From NCBI GenBank assembly GCA_009701715.1, contig WLJO01000008.1:1-64000 (forward strand): 64,000 nucleotides of DNA, written 5' to 3'. The stretch is from Actinomycetota bacterium (GTDB taxonomy: Bacteria > Actinomycetota > Acidimicrobiia > Acidimicrobiales > Ilumatobacteraceae). The position numbers and the translations under genes were made by a program. Shown here piece after piece: positions 4,534-44,002 of this stretch. The notes under the pieces are model-generated. The model saw nothing but the letters and a program-made list of their open reading frames with translations. It ran no database searches and was not told where the DNA came from. The first letter of the stretch is position 1. Each line of letters starts with the position of its first letter.

Positions 4534-4640
4534 TCGACCACCTTCGACCCCGGCCACGACAGCCGGTGAGGACTACCATCTGGGGGGCCGGAACTATCCG
4601 GTCCCGACCGTGGGGGTCGGCTGTTTGGGGAGGGTGCACG

Positions 4641-7049
4641 TTGGTCGAGCCGTACCGCGTACTGGATCTCACGGATCACCGAGGGCAATTGGCGTCCCAA
4701 ATGCTCAACACGCTCGGCGCTGACGTCCTGCTCGTGGAACCGATCGGCGGCAGCAGTGTCCGGACACTGGCGCCATTTGCCGGCGATACACCCCATCCCG
4801 AGCGCTCACTCCCGTTCGTCGCCTGGAACCGGGGCAAGCGCAGCATCGAACTTGACCTCGGCACCGAAAGCGGAGCCTCCCAGCTGATGGAACTCGCCCG
4901 CACCGCTGACGTCCTCATTGAGTCCGGCGTGGTTGACGTCGACCTTGCGGCACTGCGGGAGGCCAACCCTGCGTTGGTCACCATCTCCATCAGTGCCTTC
5001 GGCACCACCGGCCCGAAGGCACAGTGGCCCGCAACCGACCTCACCGCCCATGCCGCAGCCGGACAGCTCCTGATGACCGGCGACGAGGATCGGCCGCCCG
5101 TACGAACCACGGAGCCGCAGGTGTTCCAGCACGCCGCCGCCGACGCAGCGTGCGCCGCACTCGTCGCCCTGGCCGAGCGGGACTCGAGCGGACTCGGCCA
5201 ACACATCGACATCTCGGCCCAGCGATCCATGCTCATGGCCACCCAGAGCAACGTGCTCGCCGCCCCGTACCGGGCGCCGCTGTTCCAGCGGACCGCAACC
5301 GGGCACTTGCTCAACGGTGTCCACGTCCAGCTAATCTGGCCGTGCAAAGACGGTCACGTCCTGGTGAACGCCTTGTTCGGCGCACCGTTCGCACCGTTCA
5401 TCAAACGGCTCGTTGAGTGGGCACGGGAGGACGGCTTCTGTGGCGACGACCTCGTCAACGAGGACTGGCCCTCCTTCGGTGCGCGCGTCTTCGGTGGCGA
5501 GACCCCGATCGCACGCCATACCTATCTCAAGGAGGTCATCGGCAAGGTCTGCGAGCACCGGACCAAAGCCGAATTGCTCCAGGCGGCGCTCGACCGCAAG
5601 TTGCTCATCGGACCGATCGCGACGATGGAGGAGGTGGTCGAGAACCCCCAATTCGCGTTCCGAAACTTCTTTGAGTTGGTGACCGATCCCGAGATCTCTC
5701 CGGTCCCCTTCCGCGCTCCCGGTTCACCGGTACACGCCGACACGAAGTACGTACCGCTCGGACGCAGTCCGCGGCTCGGCGAGCACAGCGCAACGGCGCT
5801 CCGGCACTGGGCCCCACGTACGGAAACTCCCAGCCGGGAACCCGGCAACCGCCAGGCGCCGTTCGCCGGCCTCAAGGTGCTCGACCTCACGTGGGCCGTG
5901 TCGGGCCCCTATACCGCCCGTCACTTTGCCGACTACGGCGCAACCGTCATCCACGTTGAGTCCACGAAGGGACCGGACTCCGCTCGGGCGGTGCAGCCGT
6001 TCCTCGACAACCTTGCGCTGCCCGAGAACGCAGCGATTTACCACAACATGAATGCGGGCAAGCTCAGCCTGTCGCTCAACATGGCTTCACCGGGTGGGCG
6101 CGAGGTCCTCGACGACCTCGTTGCATGGGCCGACGTGCTCATCGAGTCGTTCTCACCGAGAGGCCGGCTCGCACTCGGTCTCGACTACGAGCGGTTGCGG
6201 GTCATCAACCCGCAACTCGTGATGATGTCAACCTGCCTCTTCGGCCAGCAGGGCCCCATGGCCGGCTACGCAGGGTTCGGCAACATGGCGGCCTGCCTCG
6301 TCGGCTTCTTCGACCTTACGGGTTGGCCCGACCGAGGTCCTGCCGGACCGTTCGGCGCGTACACCGACTACATCTCCCCCCGTTACGCCTTTGCCACGCT
6401 GCTCGCCGGCCTCCGGGAGAGCAGAGCCACGGGTCGCGGCCAGTACCTCGACTTCGCGCAGGCGGAGTCGGCAGTGAACTTCCTGTCGGTTGCGATGCTC
6501 GACTACTCGGTAAACGGCCGGGTGGCTGCCCGCATCGGTAACGACGACCCGGCAATGTCGCCGCACGGTGTCTACCCGTGCACGGGAACCGATCGATGGG
6601 TCGCAGTTGCGTGTCGCGATGACAGCGATTGGCACTCCTTGGCATGGCTGATCGGACGAAGCGATCTCGCGTCCCTCAACAACGCCGAACGGCTCGAACG
6701 ACGCGGGGAGCTCAACGACGCTGTCGCTGCATGGACGGGGCTCCGCTCGCCGTCCGAGGCCGAGGCCGAACTGATCGCGCACCGCGTCCCTGCGCATGCA
6801 GTCATCCACTCCCCCGACATCTATTCCGATCCACAGCTTGCGCACCTCGGACACTTCGCCGAGATCCCGCACCCACACCATGGATCCGTCACCGTCGAGG
6901 CTTCCCGCTTCGGCCTCACGGGCACACCCAGCACGATCTCCAACGGTGCACCCAGCTTCGGCCTGCACACGGTTGACCTGCTCACCGAGACGCTCGGGTA
7001 CGACCTCGACCGGATCGGTGAACTCTTCTCGTCTGGCGCCCTCGACTGA
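4641..7049 (+). CDS. Tandem-fused class III (CaiB/BaiF) CoA-transferase
   Basis: An 802-residue protein made of two complete CaiB/BaiF (family III) CoA-transferase domains, about residues 1-395 and 410-802, each beginning with a (V/L)LDLT segment and containing a G-x-GQ-x-x-D block. Usual members are about 400 residues and work as interlocked dimers, so this is a built-in pseudodimer. At the position of the catalytic Asp of formyl-CoA transferase the second half has Glu609, while the first half has Arg195, so only one half looks catalytic. The TTG start at 4641 is preceded by GGGGAGGG at ideal spacing; 25 further in-frame codons upstream look non-coding. Downstream of the SDR and probably in the same operon. 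Confidence 0.88.
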   Translation: MVEPYRVLDLTDHRGQLASQMLNTLGADVLLVEPIGGSSVRTLAPFAGDTPHPERSLPFVAWNRGKRSIELDLGTESGASQLMELARTADVLIESGVVDVDLAALREANPALVTISISAFGTTGPKAQWPATDLTAHAAAGQLLMTGDEDRPPVRTTEPQVFQHAAADAACAALVALAERDSSGLGQHIDISAQRSMLMATQSNVLAAPYRAPLFQRTATGHLLNGVHVQLIWPCKDGHVLVNALFGAPFAPFIKRLVEWAREDGFCGDDLVNEDWPSFGARVFGGETPIARHTYLKEVIGKVCEHRTKAELLQAALDRKLLIGPIATMEEVVENPQFAFRNFFELVTDPEISPVPFRAPGSPVHADTKYVPLGRSPRLGEHSATALRHWAPRTETPSREPGNRQAPFAGLKVLDLTWAVSGPYTARHFADYGATVIHVESTKGPDSARAVQPFLDNLALPENAAIYHNMNAGKLSLSLNMASPGGREVLDDLVAWADVLIESFSPRGRLALGLDYERLRVINPQLVMMSTCLFGQQGPMAGYAGFGNMAACLVGFFDLTGWPDRGPAGPFGAYTDYISPRYAFATLLAGLRESRATGRGQYLDFAQAESAVNFLSVAMLDYSVNGRVAARIGNDDPAMSPHGVYPCTGTDRWVAVACRDDSDWHSLAWLIGRSDLASLNNAERLERRGELNDAVAAWTGLRSPSEAEAELIAHRVPAHAVIHSPDIYSDPQLAHLGHFAEIPHPHHGSVTVEASRFGLTGTPSTISNGAPSFGLHTVDLLTETLGYDLDRIGELFSSGALD

Positions 7050-33834: not shown

Positions 33835-34212
33835 ATGGCAGCGGAACCGGGTGCTCGGGGCGTGGTTCGCCACGTGGTCACCGACGCAGACACCGCCGCT
33901 TCGCTCCGCTCGGGGACCGTGGCCGTGCTCGGGTCGCCCAAAGTGGTGGCGCTGTGCGAGGAGGCCTCGGTGCTCGCTCTCGAGGGTCTCCTGCCCGCCG
34001 GTCACACCTCGGTCGGCATGCGGGTGCAACTGGATCACCTCCAGCCAACAGCCGTCGGTATCGAGGTTCTCGTGGAGTCCGTACTCGAGAAGGTGGAGGG
34101 CAGACGCCTCACGTTCCACGTGAACGTGAACGACCCCCGCGGGCTGGTCGCTACCGGTCGCGTGACGCGTGTGATCGTGGAGACCGAACGGTTCCTCGAG
34201 CGATCGCGCTGA
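33835..34212 (+). CDS. Hot-dog thioesterase-family protein (FlK-like)
   Basis: A 125-residue single hot-dog-fold protein like fluoroacetyl-CoA thioesterase FlK. The features are a VVALCEEASVLALEGLLPAG helix with Glu as catalytic candidate (about 44), the strand GMRVQLDHLQPT (about 62-73) with His, and a final RVTRVIVETERF strand. Family members hydrolyse short acyl-CoAs or are orphan. The gene is divergent from tldD with about 60 bases between. The exact substrate is unknown. Confidence 0.8.
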   Translation: MAAEPGARGVVRHVVTDADTAASLRSGTVAVLGSPKVVALCEEASVLALEGLLPAGHTSVGMRVQLDHLQPTAVGIEVLVESVLEKVEGRRLTFHVNVNDPRGLVATGRVTRVIVETERFLERSR

Positions 34213-37067: not shown

Positions 37068-39032
37068 GTGACCCTCGCTGTGCAGCTGTCGTCAATCCGT
37101 TCGCCCGAAGACCTGAAGACGCTCTCCTACCCGGAACTCGCCGATCTGGCCGGGGAGATTCGTGACTTCGTGGTGCAGGCCGTCAGTGAGACCGGCGGCC
37201 ACCTCGGATCCAACCTCGGCGCCGTGGAGCTCACGCTCGCTCTGCACCGTGTGTTCGAGTCGCCCAAGGACGCCATCCTCTGGGATACCGGCCATCAGGC
37301 GTACGTGCACAAGATCGTCACCGGGCGCCAGGACGACTTCGCCCGTCTCCGTCAGGGAGGCGGCCTCTCGGGCTACCCGAACCGGAACGAGAGCGAGCAC
37401 GACTGGATCGAAAACAGTCACGCCTCCACGGTGCTCAGCTACGCGTACGGTCTCGCCGTGGCGCGTGACGCCGGGCAGGACCCGCGCCGGCACATCGTTG
37501 CGGTGATCGGCGATGGCTCGATGACCGGCGGCATGGCGTACGAGGCGCTCAACAACCTCGGCCACTCCAAGCGGCGCGTCATCATCGTGCTGAACGACAA
37601 CGGCCGCTCGTACGCGCCCACCATCTCCAACCTCACCGAGGCGCGGCCTGCGGACCTCGACCGACCGGAACAGGCCACCCTGCCCGACCGGCTCACCGAA
37701 CGACTCGCCCAGGCGTACACGGCCATCCGCATGAACCCGGTGTACGTGCGACGTCAGCGCCGGTTCGAGCAACTCGTCCGCGACATCCCGGTGGTCGGTG
37801 GACAGGCCGAGCGCGGCGTTGAGGCGTTCAAGGCTGCCGTGCGGGAGTTCCTCCAGCCGCCGTCGTTCTTCGAGGCACTCGGCGTGCGCTACATCGGGCC
37901 GATCGACGGTCACAACATGGCAGAACTGGAGTCCGCGCTCCGCAACGCAGAGGCGCTCTCCGCCGAAGGCCCGATCGTGGTGCACGTGCTCACCCAGAAG
38001 GGCCGTGGCTACTCGCCGGCGGAGCACGACGACGAGAAGCACCTGCACGACGCGCCGGTGTTCGACCCGTACGTGGGGCCGCCCAAGGCCGTGCCCACGG
38101 GCTACACGCAGGCGTTCGCCGAGTCGATCGTGAAGGAGGCAGACGCGGACCCGCGCATTGTCACCATCACGGCTGCCATGCCGGGCCCCACCGGCCTTTT
38201 GCCCTTCGAGGCTCGCTTCCCGGATCGCTTCTTTGACGTCGGCATCGCCGAACAGCACGCTGTTACGGCGGCAGCAGGGATGGCGATGGGTGGCCTGCGG
38301 CCGTTCGTCGCCGTGTACTCCACGTTCCTCTCTCGCGCTTGGGACCAAGTGGTGTACGACGTGGCGCTGCACCGCCTGCCGGTGGTGTTCTGCCTGGACC
38401 GCGCCGGCATCACGGGCGACGACGGCCCGAGCCACCACGGCATCTACGACATGGCGCTGCTCTGCAAGGTGCCCGGGATGCGAGTACTCGCACCATCGTC
38501 CGCGCAGGACCTGCAGCAAATGCTCCACGACGCCATCGAACTGGCCGACGATGGCCCGGTGATGATCCGCTACCCGAAGGGTGCTGCCCGTCAGGTGTCC
38601 GAGCACGAAGTCGGCATGGGTCTCCACGCTCGGCGCTCGCGAGAGGGTGGCCCCGAGTTGTGCATCCTCGCGGTCGGCAAGGTGCTCGCCGCCGCGGAGC
38701 GTGCCGCTGACGCACTCGCCGCCGAGGGGGTCCGCGCAACCGTGTGGGACGTGCGCAGTTGCGCACCGCTCGACGAGGACATGCTGGACGACGCGTTCCT
38801 GCACCGTGTCGTGATCACCGCAGAGGACGGCATCCGCGAGGGTGGTGTCGGCATGTCCATCGCCGACTTGCTGTCCGCCCGCGGCACCCCGGACGCGGCG
38901 AGGCCGTACGTTGAGGTACTCGGCGTGCCGACGGAGTTCGTCCCGCAGGCCAAGCCCGATGTCATCCTCCGACAGGTCGGGCTCGACGCCGAGGGCATCG
39001 CCTCCACCGCGCGCCGGCTCCTCGTACGCTGA
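37068..39032 (+). CDS. dxs: 1-deoxy-D-xylulose-5-phosphate synthase
   Basis: A 654-residue thiamine-diphosphate enzyme that joins pyruvate and glyceraldehyde 3-phosphate, first step of the MEP isoprenoid pathway. It is full length. Seen are GGHLGSNLGAVELTLALH (about 43-60), the TPP/Mg block GDGSMTGGMAYEALNN (about 148), and the transketolase-type DRAGITGDDGPSHHG (about 443-457), with the catalytic Glu in the DVGIAEQHAVTAAAG block. Uses TPP, whose salvage operon is in this same window. GTG 37068 start; an IMPase-family gene follows after 5 bases. Confidence 0.97.
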   Translation: MTLAVQLSSIRSPEDLKTLSYPELADLAGEIRDFVVQAVSETGGHLGSNLGAVELTLALHRVFESPKDAILWDTGHQAYVHKIVTGRQDDFARLRQGGGLSGYPNRNESEHDWIENSHASTVLSYAYGLAVARDAGQDPRRHIVAVIGDGSMTGGMAYEALNNLGHSKRRVIIVLNDNGRSYAPTISNLTEARPADLDRPEQATLPDRLTERLAQAYTAIRMNPVYVRRQRRFEQLVRDIPVVGGQAERGVEAFKAAVREFLQPPSFFEALGVRYIGPIDGHNMAELESALRNAEALSAEGPIVVHVLTQKGRGYSPAEHDDEKHLHDAPVFDPYVGPPKAVPTGYTQAFAESIVKEADADPRIVTITAAMPGPTGLLPFEARFPDRFFDVGIAEQHAVTAAAGMAMGGLRPFVAVYSTFLSRAWDQVVYDVALHRLPVVFCLDRAGITGDDGPSHHGIYDMALLCKVPGMRVLAPSSAQDLQQMLHDAIELADDGPVMIRYPKGAARQVSEHEVGMGLHARRSREGGPELCILAVGKVLAAAERAADALAAEGVRATVWDVRSCAPLDEDMLDDAFLHRVVITAEDGIREGGVGMSIADLLSARGTPDAARPYVEVLGVPTEFVPQAKPDVILRQVGLDAEGIASTARRLLVR

Positions 39033-40559: not shown

Positions 40560-41756
40560 TCAGTCGAGTTCGGAGCCGACGACGCTGACGAACGACACGC
40601 AGGCACCCGGTGCACCACCGAGGTTGTGCGTGAGGGCCTTGGTCTTGCCCTGCCCGATCGATGCGATCTGCCGGGGGCCGGCCTCGCCGCGCAACTGCGT
40701 CCAGCACTCGAAGAGCATCCGCAGACCGCTGGCGCCGATCGGGTGACCGAATGACTTCAGGCCGCCGTCGGGGTTCACCGGCAGCTCACCATCGAGGTCG
40801 AACGTGCCGTCAAGCACGTCCTTCCAGCCGTAGCCACGCTCGGAGAACCCGAGGTCCTCCATGAGCACGAGCTCGGTGGGCGTGAAGCAGTCGTGCACCT
40901 CGGCCATTGCAAGCTCCGCACGCGGGTTGGTGATGCCGGCCTGCTTGTACGCGTCCACGGCGCTGTGCACCACCTCGTCGAAGGAGGTGTAGTCGTACGA
41001 CGGGTCAATGGGGCCGTCTGCCGGGCCGGCAACGAACGAGAGCGCCTTCACGTACAGCGGCTTGGACGTGTACTTGTGGGCATCCTCGACACGCACGATG
41101 ATCGCGGCGGCCGAGCCGTCGGACACGCCAGAGCAGTCGAAGATGCCGAGCTGTCCGGCGATGATTGGGCTGCAGGCGATGGTCTCCTTGGAGACCTCCT
41201 TCTTGAACTGTGCACGCGAGTTGAGCGCACCGTTGCGGTGGTTCTTCCAGGCGATACGCGTGAGCACATCTTTCAGCTCCGCCGGGTCCACGCCGTACTT
41301 GTTGGCGTACGCCGGGGCGAGAAACGAGAAACTCGCCGGTGCGGTGACCGTGAGCGCGGAGCCATCGTCTGCGGGGGAAGCCACCACGAGCCCGGAGTAG
41401 CCGGAGTCCTTCAGCTTCTCCACGCCGATCGCCATCACGACGTCGTACGCGCCGGAGGCGACGGCGTAGCAGGCGTTGCGGAATGCCTCGCTGCCCGTGG
41501 CGCAGTAGTTCTCCACGTGGGTCACCGGCTTGTGCTGGATCTTCAGCGGACGCGAGAGCGTGAGGCCCGACAGGCCCGAGCCCATCGTGCCGAGCCAGAA
41601 CGCGTCGATGTCGTCGAGCTTTACGCCTGCGTTCTGCAGCGCGGCGGACGAGGACTCAACGAGCAGGTCGTCGGTGGACTTGTCCCAGTGCTCGCCGAAG
41701 TTGGTGCAGCCCATCCCGATGATGGCCACTTTGTCTCGGATTCCGTGTGATGCCAT
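40560..41756 (-). CDS. SCP-x-type thiolase (acetyl-CoA acetyltransferase)
   Basis: A 398-residue thiolase of the SCP-x/archaeal type. Nucleophile Cys85 lies in ENYCATGSE, the His motif is EVHDCF (about 300), and a GHPIGASG stretch (about 348-355) is near the end. Such enzymes cleave or form 3-ketoacyl-CoA. In archaea, thiolases of this type form a complex with a DUF35 protein and HMG-CoA synthase, and here the next gene upstream is an HMGS-like/DUF35 fusion. AAGGAG precedes the ATG, inside a small ORF. Confidence 0.9.
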   Translation of the reverse strand: MASHGIRDKVAIIGMGCTNFGEHWDKSTDDLLVESSSAALQNAGVKLDDIDAFWLGTMGSGLSGLTLSRPLKIQHKPVTHVENYCATGSEAFRNACYAVASGAYDVVMAIGVEKLKDSGYSGLVVASPADDGSALTVTAPASFSFLAPAYANKYGVDPAELKDVLTRIAWKNHRNGALNSRAQFKKEVSKETIACSPIIAGQLGIFDCSGVSDGSAAAIIVRVEDAHKYTSKPLYVKALSFVAGPADGPIDPSYDYTSFDEVVHSAVDAYKQAGITNPRAELAMAEVHDCFTPTELVLMEDLGFSERGYGWKDVLDGTFDLDGELPVNPDGGLKSFGHPIGASGLRMLFECWTQLRGEAGPRQIASIGQGKTKALTHNLGGAPGACVSFVSVVGSELD

Positions 41757-41757
41757 G

Positions 41758-41844
41758 TCAGATCTCCTTGCTGGTTTCGGTGGCCGGGGCGACGCCCTGG
41801 GTCGAGGTGTTCGTGCGGGTGTTCTTGGTGCTCGTGTTGCTCAT
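41758..41844 (-). CDS. Possible 28-aa small ORF between HMGS-like and thiolase genes
   Basis: The frame from ATG 41844 to TGA 41758 codes 28 residues, mostly Asn, Ser, Thr, Ala and Lys, of no known family. It starts at the stop of the HMGS-like gene (an ATG at 41847 is an alternative) and ends one base before the thiolase ATG. It may only carry ribosomes across the gap to the thiolase, whose AAGGAG lies in its last codons, or it may be a short unstructured peptide. Weak as a protein-coding call. Confidence 0.35.
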   Translation of the reverse strand: MSNTSTKNTRTNTSTQGVAPATETSKEI

Positions 41845-43253
41845 CATGCCCCACCGCGGATGGGTCGGGCTTTCCAGAAGTAGTTGTGTACGCCGTCTTG
41901 GGTGAACAAGCGCCGGAAGGACATCTCCACCCGGTCGCCGATCTTCACCTTGTCCGGGTCCACGTCGGTCAGTTCGCACTGGAAGCGACCGCCCCCGTCG
42001 AAGTCGATGACAGCGGCAACGACCGGCGGGCTGAGGCTGAAGGCCAAGCGGTCCACGGTGTAGGTGGCGATGGTGGCCCGCACATCCGCCATGCGGATCG
42101 GCTCCATATGGTCGATCTCGCCCGTGCCGAAACTGACCCGTGAGGGCGGCAGGTGCACGAAACCGGTTTCGTCCTTGCTGCCGAAGAAGCCGAACTTCCA
42201 TTTGTTGCGGCGCAGGCTGGGCGGGCCGGCGGGGCGGTCCGGCTCGGGGCGGCGCGGCGGCTCACGGTGGAGGAAGCCGCGCCACGTGAGGAACGAGGCA
42301 TAGGTGAGGTCGTCGCGGGTGTTGGCGATCTGCTGGGCAACCGTGTTCGTCTGGCGCGCACGGAAGGCGAGCAGTTCGTCGGTGGTGCGCAGCAGCCACA
42401 CGTTGCACCCGTCGGCGAGCAGCACCACCGCGATGGTCTGGCCGGGCTGAGCACGGTCGAGCACGTCGCACAGGTTCACCATCGCCTGGGCGGTGCCGGC
42501 GTTCCCGATCACGGTGGAGAGATCGTCGGCGACTGCCTCGGGCCGCACGCCGATCGCCTTGGCAACCGCCTTGGCCGCACGACCGTGGAGACCGCTCACG
42601 ATCACGTGGTCGAACTGGTCCGGGGTCATCCCCGCCCCGGCGCACGCACGCTTGAATGCCTCCTGGGCGAGCGGCACGTAGGCGAACTCACCGAAGCGTT
42701 CCTCCCACAGCTGCGACGAGTCGTCGCCCGGCTCGCGCCAGCGGTCGAGGAACTCGGCGGTTACACCGGCGCCGCCGAAGTCTTCGCAGATCACGTTGCC
42801 CTCGCCGAAGCAGATCGCTGCAGCGGCATCGCCGCCGTTCGCCTCGTCGCCACCGCCGGGCAGACCGACACGCACGTCGGACACGAACGCCATCTGCGAG
42901 CCACGGGCGCTCGCACCCATGAGCGCTGCCACCTGCGAGCGCACCGAGCCGTTCACGTCGTAGGCGCCGACGCCGTCAGGCAGCGCAAGCGCCGCGTGGA
43001 TGGCGGTGGCGTTGGTCTTGTCGAGGTATGCGGGCGTTGCGGTGGCGAACCAAACGTTCTCGGGCGAGTACCCCTGCGGTGCGTTGGCGAGGGCTACACG
43101 CCCAGCCTCCACGGCGAGCGACGTGGTGTCCTCGTCGTAACTGGCTACCGACCGCGTGCCCCTACCGCCGCCGCTGCCGAGCGCCGAGGTGATGGCGCTG
43201 CGCTGCAGGCGCCAGTACGGGATGTAGGCGCCATAACTCACGATTCCGGACAT
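41844..43253 (-). CDS. HMG-CoA-synthase-like protein fused to DUF35 OB-fold domain
   Basis: A 469-residue protein. Residues 1-340 are a thiolase-fold HMG-CoA-synthase/FabH-like domain (GIVSYGAYIPYWRL; DEDTTSLAVEAGR; GNAGTAQAMVNL about 268); residues about 350-469 are a DUF35 OB-fold domain (MADVRATIATYTVDRLAFS, FQCELTDVDPDKVKIGDRV). Where HMGS has its nucleophile Cys in a CxxG-type block, this protein has NGSVRSQVAAL with Ser103, so normal condensation is doubtful. In archaea separate HMGS, DUF35 and thiolase proteins form a channelling complex; here two are fused and the thiolase is adjacent. Start ATG 43253. Confidence 0.85.
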   Translation of the reverse strand: MSGIVSYGAYIPYWRLQRSAITSALGSGGGRGTRSVASYDEDTTSLAVEAGRVALANAPQGYSPENVWFATATPAYLDKTNATAIHAALALPDGVGAYDVNGSVRSQVAALMGASARGSQMAFVSDVRVGLPGGGDEANGGDAAAAICFGEGNVICEDFGGAGVTAEFLDRWREPGDDSSQLWEERFGEFAYVPLAQEAFKRACAGAGMTPDQFDHVIVSGLHGRAAKAVAKAIGVRPEAVADDLSTVIGNAGTAQAMVNLCDVLDRAQPGQTIAVVLLADGCNVWLLRTTDELLAFRARQTNTVAQQIANTRDDLTYASFLTWRGFLHREPPRRPEPDRPAGPPSLRRNKWKFGFFGSKDETGFVHLPPSRVSFGTGEIDHMEPIRMADVRATIATYTVDRLAFSLSPPVVAAVIDFDGGGRFQCELTDVDPDKVKIGDRVEMSFRRLFTQDGVHNYFWKARPIRGGA

Positions 43254-43333: not shown

Positions 43334-44002
43334 TCAGGAATAGTACGGGTTCTCGCCGGTGGCGTGGTCCGTCACGTCGACCACCTTGGTGATGCTGGCC
43401 AACTGCTCCACGAGGCTGCGCTGGACGCCTTCCATCATGGTGGTGCGGCTCATCGAGCACCCGTGGCAGCCGCCACCCATGCGCATGTATGCCGCACCGT
43501 CGCCGTCGTGGCCGACGAACTCCACGAACCCGCCGTGGGCGGACAGGGCCGGGTTGATCTCGGTGGCCACGAGGGCCTCGATCTCTGCCGACAGGGCGTC
43601 GCCGTGGGTGAGCCCCTCGATCCGCACGGCCGCGGGCTTGTTCGGGTTCCGGATGATCAGCCCGGTGGACTCTGCGTAGTCAAGAACGGCGCCCTGCAGT
43701 TTGTCCACGTCCCGACCCGGCACGATGACCTTCAGGCCGTTGTGGGTGCGCACCTCGTCGGTGAACGCCGCCTTGGTGAACTCGTCGAACGACAGGTCGT
43801 ACTGGAACGTGTCGCCGCCCTCGCCCGCGATCTCGAGGCGCAGACCGAGACGCTCGGCGTCGTCCTCGTCGGAGCGCAACGACATCAACTTGTCGTGGGC
43901 GACCTCGGTGATCTCGATAATCGGCAGGGAGGCAGGCACAGACGGGGCCAGAGGGGACTGGATGCCGGCGGCGAGCGGGGAGATGGAACCGGGTGTGGTC
44001 AC
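43334..44002 (-). CDS. nfuA: NfuA-type Fe-S cluster carrier
   Basis: A 222-residue protein with a degenerate HesB/IscA-like N-terminal domain (about 28-115) and a NifU C-terminal domain (about 130-205). The cluster-binding motif GGGCHGCSM (Cys179 and Cys182) is intact; such proteins form a [4Fe-4S] dimer and pass clusters to target enzymes. The IscA-type Cys residues of the first domain are absent, as in other NfuA proteins. GTG 44002 start. It lies between the thiolase cluster and an SDR and may be transcribed alone. Confidence 0.9.
   Translation of the reverse strand: MTTPGSISPLAAGIQSPLAPSVPASLPIIEITEVAHDKLMSLRSDEDDAERLGLRLEIAGEGGDTFQYDLSFDEFTKAAFTDEVRTHNGLKVIVPGRDVDKLQGAVLDYAESTGLIIRNPNKPAAVRIEGLTHGDALSAEIEALVATEINPALSAHGGFVEFVGHDGDGAAYMRMGGGCHGCSMSRTTMMEGVQRSLVEQLASITKVVDVTDHATGENPYYS

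Follow-up and report, generated by a model that had tools for sequence, protein, structure and literature searches.

Acetoacetyl-CoA thiolase, a DUF35 protein and HMG-CoA synthase (HMGS) form a complex in archaea, solved from M. thermolithotrophicus (6ESQ/6ET9), in which HMGS is active, the modules are three separate polypeptides and the pathway served is that of mevalonate. The same modules are encoded together in the DNA analysed here, a stretch of 64,000 nucleotides from an Actinomycetota bacterium (hereafter the window), but in this case the HMGS-like and DUF35 parts are fused, the HMGS-like part appears to be catalytically dead, and no mevalonate pathway was found.

A second set of solved relatives comes from natural-product pathways. 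The Friedel-Crafts acylase PhlACB of P. protegens (5M3K/5MG5; C. sphagni homologue, 9SKH) and MucABC of S. macacae (9VBO) combine a dead HMGS-like subunit, a DUF35 subunit and an active thiolase-type subunit, as in the window pair, although their subunits are separate whereas the window protein is fused and falls on another branch of the tree. It has been shown that PhlA lacks both the Cys and the Glu of HMGS and that only residues of PhlC are catalytic (PMC6392133); in alignment, the catalytic Cys is replaced by Gly in PhlA and by Glu in MucA, and the catalytic Glu by Cys (PMC6392133). By their dead HMGS-like subunit, PhlACB and MucABC would be a better analogue of the window pair than the archaeal complex. 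A similar trio, consisting of a dead HMGS-like protein, a thiolase and a zinc-ribbon protein, was also observed beside NRPS genes on a Priestia megaterium plasmid (L198:3992-6770), where it is probably the acyltransferase of a natural-product cluster.

In catabolism, BbsAB, IpfDE and Ltp2-ChsH2/Sal-Shy unite an SCP-x-type thiolase fold with a DUF35 partner, as here, but have no HMGS-like module. DUF35 aldolases of the Ltp2/Sal type are defined by the loss of thiolase Cys/His residues. Identity with the ibuprofen proteins IpfDE, suggested by the dioxygenase operons described below, was considered and rejected, as IpfE is a lone DUF35 protein of 132 aa and IpfD has lost the thiolase Cys/His/His, all of which the window thiolase retains. 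The published annotation of UBA5794 includes a bbsA gene. Furthermore, in the edc estrogen cluster of Novosphingobium tardaugens, the thiolase EGO55_13550 lies beside an "HMG-CoA synthase", EGO55_13555, which the authors were unable to place in the pathway, their guess being that it carries out no condensation (PMC7793797). This gene order is shared with a plasmid cluster of Novosphingobium sp. ES2-1, whose fusion protein is homologous to the window fusion (~32% identical). Gene order and the ES2-1 homologue together offer an explanation for EGO55_13555, namely that it may be the dead HMGS/DUF35 subunit of the adjacent thiolase.

An obligate gene pair

The fusion gene encodes 469 aa on the minus strand (43253-41844), most likely starting at the ATG at 43253, which is preceded by GAAGAGG. 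Its HMGS-like domain, delimited by alignments to the M. thermolithotrophicus HMGS (Mt HMGS), covers residues 1 to ~330 (42264..43253), and a DUF35 domain (PF01796, OB fold), located by profile match and alignments, covers residues ~345-465 (41859..42221). After a gap of 87 bp (41757..41843) the gene for an SCP-x-type thiolase of 398 aa follows on the same strand and in the same reading frame (41756-40560), and the two genes are probably co-transcribed. The sequence-only reading had placed a thiolase next to an HMGS-like/DUF35 fusion, and both open reading frames are indeed present and match these families.

The pairing extends well beyond this genome. Of 396 genomes of the phylum, 57 contain the fusion, 57 a thiolase over cut-off and 56 both (Fisher p = 4.6e-66); the thiolase lies directly downstream of the fusion in 66 of 69 cases, at a spacing of -4 to +219 bp, at least one of the three exceptions being at a contig end. 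The fetched loci contain a same-strand pair in 39 of 40, the other locus stopping at a contig edge, and of 80 named loci in another set, 74 have fusion and thiolase directly adjacent, the rest comprising two with a split thiolase match beside the fusion, two with an insert of ~0.9 kb and two contig edges. Given that 39/40 loci are paired and 56/57 genomes have both genes, adjacency is not a matter of chance, and the pairing is obligate.

In the window itself the pair is surrounded by nfuA, an SDR gene, dxs and an inositol-phosphatase-like gene, with no degradation operon. The NfuA-like Fe-S protein gene (43334-44002, minus strand) is directly upstream of the fusion, and the order nfuA-fusion-thiolase is conserved in the family, with dxs close by in several loci. 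The pair gave no PADLOC match that would indicate a defence function. Elsewhere in the window, an 827-aa single ORF (4566-7049, plus strand) is a tandem of two family III CoA-transferase domains, and a 125-aa protein (33835-34212, plus strand) resembles the fluoroacetyl-CoA-specific thioesterase FlK (PF22636).

Catalytic residues, domains and predicted structure

Residues 1 to ~330 of the fusion resemble archaeal HMG-CoA synthase models (PRK04262, E 2.9e-40; TIGR00748, 8.4e-25), but at scores far under the curated cut-offs of TIGR00748/PRK04262 (138.3 vs 244 and 87.7 vs 353 bits). In alignment with Mt HMGS, the window fusion has Ala, Val and Ser in place of the catalytic Glu82, Cys114 and His238. 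This loss is general: in an alignment of 139 fusions from Actinomycetota, Proteobacteria, other bacterial phyla and haloarchaeal plasmids, Glu82 and Cys114 are retained in none and His238 is missing in 137, and the position of the nucleophile is occupied by Val, Leu, Ala, Pro and others with no consistent replacement. As judged from these residues, the HMGS-like domain is catalytically dead, the HMG-CoA synthase reaction is very probably beyond the fusion protein, and members labelled "HMG-CoA synthase" would be mis-described. The archaeal complex that had been offered as a parallel for the window pair thus holds for the three modules, two of them fused here, but not for channelling, since archaeal-style transfer of acetoacetyl-CoA to HMG synthase is impossible with a fusion lacking the HMGS catalytic residues. 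Fusions without the catalytic Glu and Cys are also found on three haloarchaeal plasmids (L186, L193, L194), where the thiolase gene is upstream, not downstream.

The C-terminal ~120 residues match DUF35 (PF01796, 56.2 bits against a cut-off of 27.1), and residues ~345-465 also match the solved DUF35 chain 6esq_E. Searching the C-terminal part of the window fusion for a four-Cys zinc ribbon revealed no CxxC. Across the family, 46 of 122 genome rows and 13 of 18 plasmid rows retain the zinc-ribbon cysteines, the latter including one unfused Priestia protein. Since the ribbon has been lost in the window fusion, docking may differ from that in the solved complexes.

The partner, on the contrary, scores 603.6 bits against the SCP-x-type thiolase model NF004810/PRK06157 (cut-off 403). 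Profile and alignment identify Cys85, His288 (in HDCF) and His338 (in GHPIG); together with Asp289 and Cys290 these are kept in 91 of 91 aligned partner thiolases, so that the Cys/His loss of Ltp2/Sal-type DUF35 aldolases is not seen in the window thiolase, whose catalytic residues are by alignment intact. The thiolase is also the more conserved member of the pair, with 45-61% identity where the fusions share 31-38% (bacteria). In the same genome, two more SCP-x-type thiolase genes adjoin stand-alone DUF35 genes (C64:7812-9322; C2:48102-48904).

The fusion as modelled by AlphaFold2 (mean pLDDT 78, pTM 0.83) finds its best solved match in the archaeal HMGS of 6esq (Z 37.7, rmsd 2.7 over 324 residues), followed by PhlA (Z ~37) and MucA (Z ~33), and these best fold matches are HMGS-like chains from solved thiolase/DUF35/HMGS-like complexes. 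Because fusion and thiolase are in the same frame in this and other loci, the two could be modelled in tandem from 23 naturally paired in-frame rows, with intergenic stops read as residues. The tandem model of 897 residues reached a pTM of 0.74 with a disordered linker, a value which, we infer, exceeds the expectation for two halves placed independently. Judged by pTM, the model supports, though it does not prove, a defined arrangement of fusion and thiolase in a putative complex.

Gene neighbourhoods and phylogeny of the relatives

Within 2.5 kb of the pair, acyl-CoA dehydrogenases make up 7.5% and family III CoA-transferases 4.2% of genes, declining with distance; this enrichment is descriptive, as the loci are interrelated and drawn from several genomes. 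The whole genome to which the window belongs carries 28 acyl-CoA dehydrogenase and 21 family III CoA-transferase genes. Streptomyces loci show the order FabG-like SDR, conventional thiolase, fusion, thiolase, SDR. The most telling context comes from annotated plasmids: on those of Rhodococcus, Variovorax, Mycobacterium, Sphingomonas and Novosphingobium, the neighbours include dehydrogenases, hydratases, CoA ligases and ring-hydroxylating dioxygenases, and on the Novosphingobium sp. ES2-1 plasmid the pair is part of a cluster that matches the edc estradiol cluster in gene content and order. Ring-hydroxylating dioxygenases and CoA ligases accompany the pair in Rhodococcus opacus PD630, R. qingshengii, Variovorax sp. 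SRS16, Niveispirillum and Mycobacterium avium, with enoyl-CoA hydratases in most of these loci too; in Rhodococcus DK17 an HMG-CoA-lyase-like gene, acyl-CoA dehydrogenases and MaoC genes are nearby, and comparable catabolic operons contain the pair in Sphingomonas, Azoarcus, Sphingobium and Sphingopyxis. The pair is thus common in bacterial degradation operons. Since in the window it lies between nfuA and dxs and not in such an operon, a catabolic role here rests on the relatives.

Relatives of clade B, one of two fusion clades, have instead a B12-radical SAM gene, a ferritin gene and EtfAB as neighbours. Directly upstream of the fusion in eight of eight clade-B loci examined is a protein of ~110 aa (motif like SCCGxGGxGFIxVPGF; for example L085:6707-7036, plus strand), which has no match in Pfam or NCBIfam.

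A tree of the HMGS-like domain places all bacterial fusions on one side of a branch (support 100/97), whereas PhlA and MucA cluster with the active archaeal HMGS (MtHMGS), leaving the fused clade outside (99/96); the fusions of haloarchaea are a separate group. HMGS catalysis therefore seems to have been lost at least twice, in the fused clade and in PhlA/MucA, unless activity was regained; such a double loss is something we infer, because the tree is unrooted and the MucA and Sphingopyxis rows are long. Apparent loss on at least two occasions would suggest that the structural role of the HMGS-like module outlives its catalytic one.

A putative heteromeric thiolase and its alternatives

Sequence comparison demonstrates that the two genes are paired, that the HMGS residues are lost and those of the thiolase intact, and that relatives lie in a catabolic context. 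Beyond this, we propose that the pair is a heteromeric 3-oxoacyl-CoA thiolase with a dead-HMGS/DUF35 scaffold, acting on bulky or branched substrates, and consider this reading probable (roughly 0.7). The sequence-only reading had likewise anticipated another acyl condensation or cleavage, and another acyl-CoA reaction is what is indicated. In the proposed mechanism, the thiolase and its scaffold subunit, a dead HMGS domain fused to DUF35/OB, would make up one heteromeric enzyme. The thiolase would cleave a 3-oxoacyl-CoA with CoA by means of Cys85 and His288/His338, presumably in this direction, the substrate probably being a bulky, cyclic or alpha-branched 3-oxoacyl-CoA. DUF35 may dock on the thiolase and help to form the pocket for CoA and the acyl group, and the dead HMGS domain would dimerise and wall or shape the cavity with no chemistry of its own, like PhlA in PhlACB.

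A more daring version, which we regard as doubtful, is that the dead HMGS domain does more than serve as a scaffold and, together with DUF35, acts as a mobile cradle for CoA and the acyl group, or as a new active site independent of Cys, that enables or directs thiolysis of large ring-fission 3-oxoacyl-CoAs, making the pair a catabolic machine of bacteria and haloarchaea in which HMGS catalysis was lost independently of PhlA.

Among the alternatives, an acyltransferase of the PhlACB/MucABC type would hand an acyl group from the thiolase Cys to a carbon acceptor (a phenol, a tetramic acid or another enol), with the fusion standing for PhlA plus PhlB. The modules are the same, the HMGS-like subunit is dead and the thiolase Cys active in both, and the A1 profile scores PhlA slightly over archaeal HMGS (9.6e-52 vs 1.9e-46). 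However, the relatives sit in acyl-CoA catabolism and in no natural-product cluster, PhlA and MucA are set apart from the fused clade by the two branches described above, and the nearest solved relative of the window thiolase is the archaeal acetoacetyl-CoA thiolase 6esq_A (5.6e-55), well ahead of PhlC (6e-26). C-acyl transfer is thus unlikely, and the pair is PhlACB-like in architecture yet outside PhlACB by tree and context, a new variant among multicomponent thiolase/DUF35 enzymes.

Slightly less likely still is that the HMGS-like domain has gained a new activity through other residues, such as hydrolysis or a lyase reaction on the thiolase product, and that the pair performs true two-step channelling. 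Numerous charged residues are invariant across both fusion clades (D40, D42, D126, R128, E137, D142, D170, R173, R186), as such an activity would have it, but interfaces and CoA sites would likewise be expected to be invariant, and the variable nucleophile position argues against it.

That the pair could be a genuine HMG-CoA synthase and acetoacetyl-CoA thiolase, for mevalonate or for leucine/ketone-body metabolism, is highly improbable in spite of its sub-threshold likeness to HMGS models and the label hydroxymethylglutaryl-CoA synthase given to a relative in some records, the synthase function of the fusion being rejected in view of the catalytic-residue loss and the missing mevalonate genes. 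Mevalonate synthesis had not been expected from the presence of dxs in the window; the gene is there (37068-39032, plus strand; 602.8 bits), and a search of the 97% complete genome found ispH as well but no HMG-CoA reductase (no PF00368 match), and a mevalonate kinase match (TIGR00549) only under cut-off.

With the heteromeric thiolase as the preferred reading, an HMGS-similar family found in organisms that degrade aromatics, steroids and estrogens appears to partner a thiolase without catalysis of its own, which would correct both its annotation and the pathway models that include it. The fusion family also provides a natural test of what an HMGS-like module contributes once its chemistry has been lost.
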